Below are positions 1,803 through 12,107 of a stretch of 27,586 nt of DNA, in pieces (position 1 is the first letter of the stretch; each line of letters starts with the position of its first letter). The notes under the pieces are model-generated. The model did no database searches, was not told the origin of the DNA, and saw only the letters and a list, made by a program, of their open reading frames with translations. Source of the DNA: Prevotella sp. UBA3776 (GTDB taxonomy: Bacteria > Bacteroidota > Bacteroidia > Bacteroidales > Bacteroidaceae). The stretch is taken from positions 1 to 27,586 of the forward strand of contig DFFM01000051.1 of the NCBI GenBank assembly GCA_002369515.1, in the 5' to 3' direction. The position numbers and the translations under genes were made by a program.

Positions 1803-3983
1803 ATGAAAAGATTAATCAGATTCGCCCTGGTGCTGACGTTCTTGGCTACGGGCTCAGCCAGTCTGCAAGCGCAGGGATTCAGAAGACCACAGCCCAAAGC
1901 CGGCAATCCGGCGCTGAAGGAAGTCTATCAGGACTACTTCAAGATTGGCGTGGCAGTGAACAAGTTCAACATTTCGGTGCCCGAACAGGCTGCACTCGTA
2001 AAGCAGGAGTTCAATAGCATCACCGCCGAGAACGACATGAAACCCGGCATGCTGCAGCCCAAGGAAGGCCAGTGGAACTGGGGCGCTGCCGACAGCATTG
2101 CCAATTTCTGCCGTCAGAACGGCATCAAGCTGCGTGGCCACTGCCTTTGCTGGCACTCGCAGTTTGCCGACTGGATGTTCGTGGACAAGAAAGGCAAGGA
2201 GGTGAAGAAGGAAGTGTTCTACAAGCGTCTGCGCGAGCACATCCACACCGTGGTGAACCGCTACAAGGACGTGGTCTATGCCTGGGACGTGGTGAACGAG
2301 GCCATTGCCGACCAGGCCTTCGGATGGCCTGGCCATCCCGCCAACCCCTATCGCGAGAGCCGCCACTACAAGCTCTGCGGCGACGAGTTCATTGCCAAGG
2401 CTTTTGAGTTTGCCCACGAGGCCGACCCCAACGCCCTGCTGTTCTACAACGACTACAATGCTGCCGACCCCGGCAAACGCGACCGCATTTACAATATGGT
2501 GAAGAAAATGCAGGAGCAGGGCGTGCCCATCACGGGCATCGGCATGCAGGGGCACTACAATATCTACGGCCCCTCGGAGGAAGACATCGACGCTGCCATC
2601 ACGAAATATTCGGAGTTGGTGAAGCACATCCACATCACCGAACTCGACCTGCGCACCAACACCGAGCAGGGCGGACAGCTGCGCTTCTCGCGCGGCGAGG
2701 CCAAGCCCCAGGCTCCCTATATCTCTACGCTGCAGGCCGACCAGTACAACCGCATCTTCCGCGTGTTCCGCAAGCACAAGGACGTTATCGACTGCGTCAC
2801 CTTCTGGAATCTGGGCGACAAAGACTCTTGGTTGGGCGTGAACAACCATCCGCTGCCCTTCGACGAGAACTACAACCCGAAGAATTCTTATTTCGTTATT
2901 CGCGACTTCAACACCGCTCTCGAGAATCAGGAAATCAAGGAAGACTTCCGCCCCAACGCCATGAACCAGCCCGGGCAGCAGTATCCCATGGTCAACTCTC
3001 AGGGCTATGCCCGTTTCCGCGTAGAGGCTCCCGACGCCAAGTCGGTCATCGTAAGCCTCGGCCTGGGTGGTCGTGGCGGCACGGTGCTGCGCAAGGATAA
3101 GGACGGCGTGTGGACAGGCACCACCGAGGGCCCCATGGATCCCGGTTTCCACTACTACCACCTGACCATCGACGGTGGCGTGGTGAACGACCCCGGCACC
3201 CACAACTACTTCGGCTCGTGCCGTTGGGAGAGCGGCATCGAGATTCCCGCCGCCGACCAGGACTTCTACGCCTGTCGCGAGAACATTCCTCACGGAGCCA
3301 TCCAGCAAGTGCTCTTCCCCTCGCCCAGCACCGGCGGCATGCAGACCGCCATGGTCTATCTGCCGCCTACGTACGGCAAGCTGGTCAAAGGCAAGCAGGA
3401 GCGCTTCCCCGTGCTCTATCTGCAGCACGGATGGGGTGAGAACGAAACCAGCTGGTCGAAGCAAGGACATGCCGGACTCATCATGGACAACCTCATTGCC
3501 GACGGCAAAATCAAGCCCTTCATCATAGTCATGGCCTACGGTCTGACCAACGACATCAAGTTTGGCACCATACGCCAGTTCGAGGCCCGCGAGTTTGAGA
3601 AACTGCTTTGCGACGAGCTCGTTCCCTTCATCGACAAGAACTTCCTCACCAAGAATGACAAGTGGAGCCGCGCCATGGCCGGTCTGTCCATGGGCGGCAT
3701 GGAAACCAAGCTCATCACCCTGCGCCGTCCCGAACTGTTCGGCTACTGGGGTCTGCTGAGCGGTGGAACCTACATGCCCGAGGACATCAAGGACAAGAAG
3801 CAGGTGCGCGTCATCTTCGAGAGTTGCGGAAGCAAGGAGAATCCCGATGGCATCAACAAGTCGGTCGAGGCCCTGAAGGCCGCCGGACTGAACGCTCACG
3901 GATTCATCTCCGAAGGCACAGCCCACGAATTCCTCACCTGGCGCCGCAGCCTCTACCACATGGCTCAGTTGCTGTTCAAGTAG
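1803..3983 (+). CDS. Bifunctional GH10 endo-xylanase / CE1 feruloyl esterase
   Basis: The 726-residue secreted or periplasmic enzyme starts at [17 protein letters not shown], a signal peptide ending near SLQAQG. An upstream TTG at 1728 would put 25 non-signal residues in front and overlaps the promoter box. Residues about 40-390 are a GH10 barrel with acid/base E166 (WDVVNEA) and nucleophile E280 (HITELDL). Residues about 405-500 form a CBM48-like beta-sandwich ([16 protein letters not shown]). Residues about 515-726 are a CE1 esterase with nucleophile S629 (GLSMGG) and catalytic H708 (GTAHEF). The same order is described for Xyn10D-Fae1A of Prevotella ruminicola 23. The enzyme should cut the xylan backbone and release ferulate from arabinose side chains. 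It is the first gene of the plus-strand cluster. All catalytic motifs are intact. Confidence 0.93.
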
Positions 3984-3988
3984 TTCAT

Positions 3989-4150
3989 GAGTTGACGGTT
4001 TACGGTTGACAGTTTGCGGTTTACAGATGATATGCTGACAAAGCCACTCTGATTGAAAGAGTAATCAGCTGTAAGCTGTAAGCTGTCAACTGTCAACCGT
4101 AAACTGTCAACTGTAAACCGTAAACCGTAAACCGTCAACAGTAAACCATC
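3989..4150 (+). repeat. Heptamer repeat block with inverted arms, copy 1
   Basis: The spacer between the GH10-CE1 and GH8 genes is built of 7-bp units, (G/A)TAAAC(C/T) or GTCAAC(T/C). The left arm (about 3991-4024) has them in reverse orientation (GTTTACGG, GTTGACAG). The right arm (about 4070-4148) has them forward. Long stretches of the arms can pair, for example AACTGTCAACCGTAAAC in the right arm against the left. The left arm runs into cagatgatatgctga, which is nearly repeated at 10559 in copy 3. The block could form a large RNA hairpin between cistrons. Confidence 0.75.
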
Positions 4151-4163
4151 AATCTTGCCGCCA

Positions 4164-10533: not shown

Positions 10534-10536
10534 AAA

Positions 10537-10782
10537 GACGGTTTACAGTTTACGGTTTACAGATGATGTGCCGAAAAACGGTAAGGTGTTTACCGTAAAC
10601 CTTAACTCTAACCTTAATCTTAACCCAAACAGCCATCCGGGTGGGAAGTTAAGGTTAGCGTTGCAAACCGTAAACTGTAAACCATAAACTGTAAACCATA
10701 AACTGTAAACCATAAACCGTAAACCATAAACCGTAAACCATAAACTGTAAACTGTAAACCATAAACCATAAACCGTAAACCG
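10537..10782 (+). repeat. Heptamer repeat block with inverted arms, copy 3
   Basis: The left arm (10540-10565) is GTTTACAG/GTTTACGG in reverse orientation. The right arm (10665-10782) is roughly 17 nearly unbroken forward 7-mers, (G/A)TAAAC(C/T). Between them is a second inverted pair: aaccttaactctaacc (10597-10612) against aagttaaggttag (10646-10658). The left arm runs into cagatgatgtgccga, the near-copy of the sequence in block 1. The block fills the spacer before the GH5 gene. Confidence 0.8.
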
Positions 10783-10799
10783 AATATCAACCAAGAATA

Positions 10800-12107
10800 A
10801 TGATGAAAAAAGCTTTCTATCCTTTACTGCTCCTGTTGCTGGCAGCCAGTTTCACAGCCTGCGGCGGCGACGAATGGCACCCCGCAGAGGAACAGATTCC
10901 TACGCCTGCGCCCACTCCCGACCCAACACCCAGCACTCCCGACGAAGGCAAGACCAAGGACCCGACGTTCACACCGCTGCATGTGGAGGGACGCTACTTC
11001 GTCGATGAGAACGGAGTGCGCCACAATCTGCACGGCTTCGCCCAGACCTACAGCCCGTGGTTTAACGAGCAGGGCAAACGGTGGAACAACTACGACGTGA
11101 ACGCCTGCTTGAAATACAACCAGGGACTCATCGACAAAATTCTGGAACAAGGGTGGAAGATGGACTTCGTCCGCATGCACATGGACCCCTACTGGAGCAA
11201 CACGCCCGGAGTGCAGACCACCGGCGAGAACGACATCTCGGCGTTCGACTTCGAGCGGTTCAAGCGCTATCTCGACGAGGTGTTCATCCCGATGGCCGAA
11301 TATGCCATTGGGCGCGGCCTTTACGTAGTGATGCGCCCGCCTGGAGTGTGCCCCGAACGCATCTCCATCGGCGGCCCCTACCATCAGTACCTCAAGCGCG
11401 TTTGGACCTATGTGGCCCAGCACCCCAAACTCTGCAACAATGGCTACGTGATGTTTGAGCTGGCCAACGAACCCATCCAGATATGCAACGCCAGCGGCAC
11501 TGCCTTGGACAACTGGAACGGGGCCGCCTTCGACGAGCGCGGAAAGCTCATCACCGATTTCATGCAGGAAATCGTCGATGCCATGCGCCGCCACTGCGAC
11601 AATATCCTGCTCGTTCCCGGCCTGCACTACCAAATGCTCTACCGCACCTTCGAGAAATATCCCGTCCGCGGCTCCAACATCGGCTACGCCGTACATTGCT
11701 ACCCCGGTTGGTACAACAGCGGCTACGACCGCGAAGTGGAGGTGGTTTATGACAAGTTCAAGGCCGGATGGGACAACGAAATCATGCCCATCGGGCGCAA
11801 GGCCCCCATCGTAGTCACCGAGATGGACTGGGCCCCCGAAGTCTATGGCAAGTCGTGGGGCAAGGCCATCACCGGCACGGCCGGCGCCGGTGGTTTCGGC
11901 GCCAACTTCATGCGCGTGGCCGACGAGAGCCAGAACATCAGCTGGCTGCTCTTCACCAGTCCCGAGCTGCTGGCCCAGTACGACGACGCGCTGCCCGACG
12001 GAAAAACGTTCCTCACCGACCCGGAGGCTTGCCCGCGACCCGTCTATCGCAAATACAAATACTACGCCACGCCCGAATATCACGCCTTGGTCAACAAGGC
12101 CGAATAG
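10800..12107 (+). CDS. GH5-family glycoside hydrolase, surface lipoprotein
   Basis: The 435-residue protein starts MMKKAFYPLLLLLL and has a lipobox ending at C21. The following GGDE is acidic, suggesting display on the outer surface. A Pro/Thr-rich linker (about 32-50, TPAPTPDPTPSTP) leads to the catalytic TIM barrel. Acid/base E224 lies in FELANEP and nucleophile E341 in VVTEMDW, both classical GH5 positions. The subfamily cannot be fixed by eye. Bacteroidota GH5 enzymes in xylan loci include endo-xylanases such as GH5_21, while other subfamilies act on mannan or xyloglucan. As the surface lipoprotein in a xylan cluster, it most likely makes the first cut in the polymer. It is the last gene before the terminator. 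Confidence 0.85.
   Translation: MMKKAFYPLLLLLLAASFTACGGDEWHPAEEQIPTPAPTPDPTPSTPDEGKTKDPTFTPLHVEGRYFVDENGVRHNLHGFAQTYSPWFNEQGKRWNNYDVNACLKYNQGLIDKILEQGWKMDFVRMHMDPYWSNTPGVQTTGENDISAFDFERFKRYLDEVFIPMAEYAIGRGLYVVMRPPGVCPERISIGGPYHQYLKRVWTYVAQHPKLCNNGYVMFELANEPIQICNASGTALDNWNGAAFDERGKLITDFMQEIVDAMRRHCDNILLVPGLHYQMLYRTFEKYPVRGSNIGYAVHCYPGWYNSGYDREVEVVYDKFKAGWDNEIMPIGRKAPIVVTEMDWAPEVYGKSWGKAITGTAGAGGFGANFMRVADESQNISWLLFTSPELLAQYDDALPDGKTFLTDPEACPRPVYRKYKYYATPEYHALVNKAE

Follow-up and report, generated by a model that had tools for sequence, protein, structure and literature searches.

Grass xylan carries side chains of the structure L-galactose-xylose-feruloyl-arabinose, and feruloylated side chains ending in L-galactose contribute to the poor digestibility of corn and grass xylan. 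Release of the L-galactose requires an alpha-L-galactosidase. An L-galactose pathway, Bvu0219/0220/0222, was reportedly described in Bacteroides vulgatus by Hobbs in 2014, with Bvu0220 said to act in it. Here we consider a seven-gene cluster on contig DFFM01000051.1 of the draft genome of Prevotella sp. UBA3776 (27,586 nucleotides, analysed at full length and called the window). In this cluster, genes of xylan degradation adjoin genes for an aldo-keto reductase (AKR), a predicted lactonase and a medium-chain dehydrogenase/reductase (MDR), together called the trio. The trio resembles the B. vulgatus pathway (AKR, lactonase, L-galactonate dehydrogenase) by enzyme type; unlike that pathway as reportedly described, it has xylan enzymes alongside. 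The seven genes likely belong to a programme for using grass (glucuronoarabino)xylan into which catabolism of the terminal side-chain sugar is built.

The roles of Bvu0219 and Bvu0222 are given in the available part of PMC12632266. The same part describes the lgu L-glucose/L-galactose cluster of Luteolibacter LG18, which has a related AKR and a route via D-tagaturonate. Unlike the window, LG18 has no polysaccharide genes in this description of lgu, and the D-tagaturonate enzymes are inside the LG18 cluster, whereas candidate enzymes for onward use of D-tagaturonate are found elsewhere in the window's genome. In B. ovatus, L-Gal was the only sugar that BACOVA_03438, the GH95 enzyme of the PUL-XylL locus, released from corn xylan (PMC4491172, available part). 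GH95 genes of the same type, accompanied as in PUL-XylL by GH31, GH97 and GH43, occur on another contig of the window's genome (C46) and in the relative RUG107. Unlike the window half, PUL-XylL has the GH95, and no L-galactose dehydrogenase, lactonase or L-galactonate dehydrogenase is named in the available part of that paper. The species B. plebeius likewise has an L-galactose dehydrogenase (7lh6) and a glycan locus that releases L-galactose; however, this porphyran locus (PMC12316285, available part) targets red-algal galactan rather than xylan. The initial annotation knew of no description of a coupling between xylan and L-galactose in Prevotella, and none was found in the literature searched, most subscription journals being outside its reach. 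The word L-galactose has no occurrence in PMC11784079 (Segatella copri).

The seven-gene cluster and its trio

All seven open reading frames (ORFs) lie on the plus strand at 1803-12107 (Table 1), in the order GH10-CE1, GH8, esterase, AKR, COG3618 lactonase, MDR, GH5 given by the initial annotation. Also as annotated, ATGA is common to the esterase stop and the AKR start. This is the sole tight join in the cluster, since the intergenic distances are 180, 111, -4, 73, 202 and 266 bp. The GH10-CE1 protein passes the cut-off of NF041944, bifunctional xylanase/feruloyl esterase (1469.9 bits, cut-off 1200). Signal-like N-termini were seen by eye on the hydrolases and the esterase, and none on the AKR, lactonase and MDR, which fits secreted degradation followed by cytoplasmic oxidation.

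Table 1. Features of the cluster and its flanks (window coordinates)
Feature	Position	Strand	Remark
Possible Bacteroidota -7 element TAATTTTG	1723..1730	+	Before the first gene; without full -33/-7 match
GH10 xylanase fused to CE1 feruloyl esterase	1803..3983	+	NF041944 equivalog and motifs
GH8	4164..5483	+	Nearest solved structures are reducing-end xylose-releasing exo-oligoxylanases (Rex8A)
SASA-type carbohydrate (acetyl) esterase	5595..7358	+	SASA domain 26-271 of 587 aa
AKR, predicted L-galactose dehydrogenase	7355..8305	+	Start overlaps esterase by ATGA
PF04909 amidohydrolase, COG3618 type, predicted L-galactono-lactonase	8379..9314	+	
Zinc-dependent MDR, predicted L-galactonate dehydrogenase (to D-tagaturonate)	9517..10533	+	Substrate assigned by context
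GH5-type hydrolase	10800..12107	+	N-terminus lipobox-like TACGGD (by eye)
Strong hairpin with T run	12210..12259	+	One copy of a dispersed genomic repeat

The five distinct solved sequences nearest to the AKR are all L-galactose dehydrogenases (471 to 267 bits), the next match scoring 92.5. Identity is 63% over 284 aligned residues with 7lh6 of B. plebeius and 50% over 309 aligned residues with Luteolibacter LguA (9w6y). Residues D51, Y56, K82 and H123, which we take to be the catalytic tetrad Asp-Tyr-Lys-His, are present and invariant across 26 aligned sequences. These data support placing the AKR with the characterised L-galactose dehydrogenases. Proteins 98 to 99% identical to it are encoded on other contigs (P0002-P0004). 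For the lactonase model, the top solved fold found by VIA-align is the COG3618 amidohydrolase 4dlf. The MDR has ADH_N and ADH_zinc_N domains with CGSD, GHE and four-Cys motifs, presumably the catalytic and structural zinc sites. Motifs that we take to be catalytic are also present in the lactonase and the GH10-CE1 protein.

Sister loci and the candidate alpha-L-galactosidase

In RUG107, the nearest relative with a genome compared (AKR 87% identical to that of the window), both halves of the system stand in one 45-kb locus (contig C31, minus strand, about 166.5 to 121.4 kb). The order is SusC-type receptor, SusD, DUF5627, GH10, SASA-CE1, GH10-CE1, GH8, AKR, lactonase, MDR, BD-FAE, GH5, u1563, GH97, GH43-CE, GH97, GH31, GH31, GH95, GH43. 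The order of the window genes is retained in it, without the SASA gene between GH8 and the AKR. The SusC/SusD pair consists of a TonB plug protein of 943 aa and a SusD of 595 aa, and the sole gene on the opposite strand is a small ORF of 240 aa. Apart from the first four genes, which were annotated separately, labels were assigned by BLAST to representatives with Pfam domains, the C46 type of GH95 having been tested on the C46 copy; GH10-CE1 was detected by DNA match, the ORF picker having taken the antisense frame there.

A differing arrangement is found in L071 and L138, which lie on one contig: GH95-GH43-GH97-GH8-esterase-AKR-lactonase-MDR-GH97-GH43/CE-GH10/CE1, after which come SusC and SusD. 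Two more genomes, G166 and G053, carry the AKR, GH10-CE1 and GH95 on a single contig, at distances of 30 to 41 kb. As a separate observation, a protein of about 1600 aa with a signal-like start, 83% identical between two genomes (L133:9960-14882, minus strand; L003:16259-20947, plus strand), is encoded in the sister locus at the position between GH5 and GH97; its L003 copy matches no Pfam family.

The GH95 gene on C46, the second of the draft genome (C46:158594-161125), scores 1026 bits against BACOVA_03438 (4ufc), with the next match at 650. It stands in a run on one strand, u1563-GH97-GH43/CE-GH97-GH31-GH31-GH95-GH43. Labelled xylan-type neighbours surround GH95 genes of this type in 6 of 9 stretches. 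In three of these, from the Prevotellaceae-type genomes L117, L121 and L122, the GH95 lies directly between GH3 and GH10-CE1.

The window has a GH95 gene of its own (20384-22837), which was considered as the alpha-L-galactosidase of the cluster and rejected, as it belongs to another group (455 bits to 4ufc against 548 to 2rdy). It is 38.6% identical to the C46 protein. A Thr matches Thr370 of BACOVA_03438, but this residue is not diagnostic, since 2rdy, 8zbv and 7kmq carry Thr too; FucOB has His. In other genomes, genes of the window type adjoin an AraC-type gene like that of the window in 10 of the 11 stretches compared (the exception is L125), and the window copy has its own promoter match at 22903. 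The minus-strand group at 18293-22837 comprises this GH95, a Bac_rhamnosid_N protein and the AraC-type regulator, with an ATGA overlap between the first two.

Transcription, conservation and alternative sources of the sugar

A single transcription unit across the seven genes is plausible. The motif TAnnTTTG, which we take to be the Bacteroidota -7 consensus, occurs at 1723 (Table 1) and, with a full -33/-7 match, at 12398, past the last gene, and is absent from the five internal gaps (832 bp in all). This absence, the ATGA overlap at the very join and the order retained in RUG107 make it unlikely that the trio and the xylan genes are transcribed separately and only adjoin in the window. Such a division would agree with the gaps of 73 to 266 bp, some of them repeat-rich, and with a match at 8316, ahead of the lactonase, to a sigma-70-like consensus that is presumably mostly unused by Bacteroidota.

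The hairpin downstream of GH5 (ATATCTCCCGACAAT...; -24.6 kcal/mol, z -6.9) was not listed by the window scan that gave the match at 8316. Across the draft genome its arm has 101 matches with at most two mismatches (58 on the forward and 43 on the reverse strand, one full hairpin being able to score twice), against 0 for the reversed control pattern. Because the arm recurs in this way, the hairpin is a dispersed repeat rather than an operon-specific terminator. Thus, of the strong terminator said to close the cluster, the strong hairpin is real and the specific role is not retained. The hairpin repeat is found at both contig breakpoints, of the window contig and of C46 (93% over 56 bp), which may be chance, as the genome has about 100 arms. 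Degenerate GTAAACYGT repeats were also observed in the gaps 3984-4160, 5480-5560 and 10534-10790. The gap repeat GTAAACCGTAAAC is present in 50 genomic copies, the control in 1, and the segment 10534-10680 folds strongly (z -5.0).

We surveyed the neighbourhoods of the 80 closest named AKR loci, mostly titled Prevotella, Prevotellaceae, Bacteroidaceae or Bacteroidales and none titled vulgatus. The controls were 80 stretches (1,234 kb) taken from 39 of the 80 genomes and from that of the window; they begin at the first base of a contig, and some measure just 1 to 6 kb. In 63 of the 80 loci the AKR has both the lactonase and the MDR within 6 kb, and at least 3 of the other 17 are interrupted by contig ends. 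Together with the grouping of the AKR and the fold of the lactonase, this conservation supports the predicted assignment of the trio to the route from L-galactose to D-tagaturonate. The xylan side of the proposed synteny fared differently, as no more than 3 of the 80 loci, and none of the 80 controls, have GH10-CE1 at a distance of up to 10 kb.

GH8 (10 loci against 0 controls) and GH3 (8 against 1) are commoner near the AKR than in the controls. Only these counts and that of GH10-CE1 are free of bias, because the other probes were taken from the case loci (GH97, GH43-CE, GH29, FucP, GH31, BD-FAE and others; SASA and GH5 in part) and favour enrichment. With this reservation, the neighbours include a FucP-type permease (47 against 0), GH97 (30 against 2), GH43 with two probe types (20 against 3), GH29 (15 against 0) and SASA-type esterases (11 against 0), and any xylan-type gene is found at 35 AKR loci against 6 controls. 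The P values of this survey are rough, since loci and genomes are related.

The AKR and GH95 tend to occur in the same genomes. Among 151 genomes of the family, the AKR was found in 72, GH95 in 56 and both in 42 (odds ratio 6.5, P 2e-7); for GH95, matches below 53% identity were dropped, 76 of the 151 genomes having a match at 1e-200. Among 200 genomes of the genus, 84 have both, 28 the AKR only, 18 GH95 only and 70 neither (odds ratio 11.7, P 6e-15). Neither P value takes relatedness into account, genome incompleteness adds noise, and some genomes are those of the named loci again. Six of the 84 genus genomes with both genes have them on one contig within 26 kb, about 1.3 being expected; this is not independent support, because four of the six match loci of the named set (RUG107, L009, L035, L071). 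GH10-CE1 was found in 33 of the 151 family genomes, 26 of them with the AKR, and it lies within 60 kb of GH95 in 11 of the 23 genomes having both.

A number of observations weigh against assigning the cluster to a xylan side chain. The cluster has no alpha-L-galactosidase, transporter or SusC/SusD pair (a Pfam scan of 19 window ORFs gave none of the latter), and its coupling to GH10-CE1 is as rare as stated above. The two halves are on two contigs, and the ends of the window contig and C46 have no overlap or common junction. The AKR scores 76.8 bits under a curated NCBIfam cut-off of 550, the lactonase 34.4 under that of NF052480 (L-fucono-1,5-lactonase, 400), and the MDR 181.7 under that of its best NCBIfam, NF007489 (376). 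Seven of the 80 loci have the AKR and MDR with no lactonase in the stretch examined, and four with 10 kb downstream covered have neither lactonase nor MDR. In 45 of the 80 no xylan-type gene was matched in the stretch examined, and GH95 shows no enrichment near the AKR (3 loci against 2 controls at a distance of up to 10 kb). No xylan-type neighbour was labelled near the C46-type GH95 in 3 of 9 stretches (L114-L116), and G114, with GH10-CE1 and GH95 in one xylan-type region, has no AKR match at 1e-110. Finally, the AKR and GH10-CE1 lie within 60 kb of each other in only 3 of 26 family genomes, one being the window's own.

Since FucP, GH97, GH43 and GH29 are the commonest AKR neighbours, other glycans with L-galactose are possible sources. 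One possibility is that the trio is an L-galactose pathway fed mainly from rhamnogalacturonan II (RG-II), L-Gal-containing xyloglucan or algal galactan, and that its adjacency to xylan genes reflects mosaic gene shuffling. The rarity of close AKR and GH10-CE1 pairs agrees with this, as does the fact that FucP, GH97 and GH29 are commoner near the AKR than GH8 or GH10-CE1. In G053 the trio stands beside FucP and GH29, about 30 kb from GH95 and GH10-CE1. The available parts of two papers supply such sources: the porphyran locus of B. plebeius, the species of 7lh6, has a GH29 alpha-L-galactosidase (PMC12316285), and a GH95 enzyme releases L-Gal from RG-II chain A (PMC10154630). However, in RUG107 and L071, whose xylan arrangements differ, a single run contains both the trio and the C46-type GH95, the AKR co-occurs with that GH95, and GH8 and SASA-type esterases are commoner near the AKR than in controls. 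We therefore consider such an origin unlikely.

That the trio oxidises another sugar (L-fucose, L-glucose or D-arabinose) would suit the L-fucose:H+ symporter family of the permease beside it in relatives, the frequency of GH29, a family named for alpha-L-fucosidase, and the oxidation of L-glucose by the Luteolibacter relative, but it is highly improbable given the grouping of the AKR, the absence of sugar-acid dehydratases from the 20 annotated neighbour proteins (a minority of the neighbours), and the properties of LguA, which is inactive on L-fucose and D-arabinose and has a kcat/Km for L-galactose 40-fold above that for L-glucose (PMC12632266, available part).

Other features of the window were also noted. 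A SMODS nucleotidyltransferase protein adjoins a SMODS-associating 4TM effector at 25245-27207 (minus strand), near the contig end, and they are probably an anti-phage pair of the CBASS type (cyclic-oligonucleotide-based anti-phage signalling system). A repeat of at least 55 bp, seen by eye at 13392-13447 and 14162-14217, flanks a DUF4304 gene; pieces of it of 31 to 35 bp also occur on C46.

Proposed use of the xylan side chain

The best reading is that the cluster handles the L-galactose-xylose-feruloyl-arabinose side chain, with two provisos: it needs the half encoded on C46, and the close coupling exists in few species. The secreted GH10-CE1, SASA esterase, GH8 and GH5 proteins would cut the backbone and strip ferulate and acetate, and the GH95 of BACOVA_03438 type encoded on C46, outside the window, would free the side-chain L-galactose. 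In the cytoplasm, the AKR would oxidise L-galactose to L-galactono-lactone, the lactonase would open this to L-galactonate, and the MDR would oxidise L-galactonate to D-tagaturonate, which would then enter the uronate route. The initial annotation had assigned the cluster to exactly this side chain. In its favour, the RUG107 trio lies inside a xylan locus ending in a BACOVA_03438-type GH95, and the AKR and GH95 co-occur across genomes.

It is about as likely as not that Prevotella relatives of one lineage have a single xylan locus that takes the grass side chain of greatest complexity from capture at the outer membrane through to central metabolism, with SusC/SusD, xylanases, acetyl and feruloyl esterases, GH31 as a possible alpha-xylosidase, the alpha-L-galactosidase and the complete route from L-galactose to D-tagaturonate. 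Such a cell would gain a sugar left over by other users of xylan, and the presence of complex ferulated xylan may be signalled by L-galactose or a derivative of it. The joining of ester removal, alpha-L-galactosidase and L-galactose catabolism offers a testable account of who consumes L-galactose in the rumen. The locus would serve as a genomic marker for complex-xylan specialists and as a source of candidate enzymes for corn-fibre processing.

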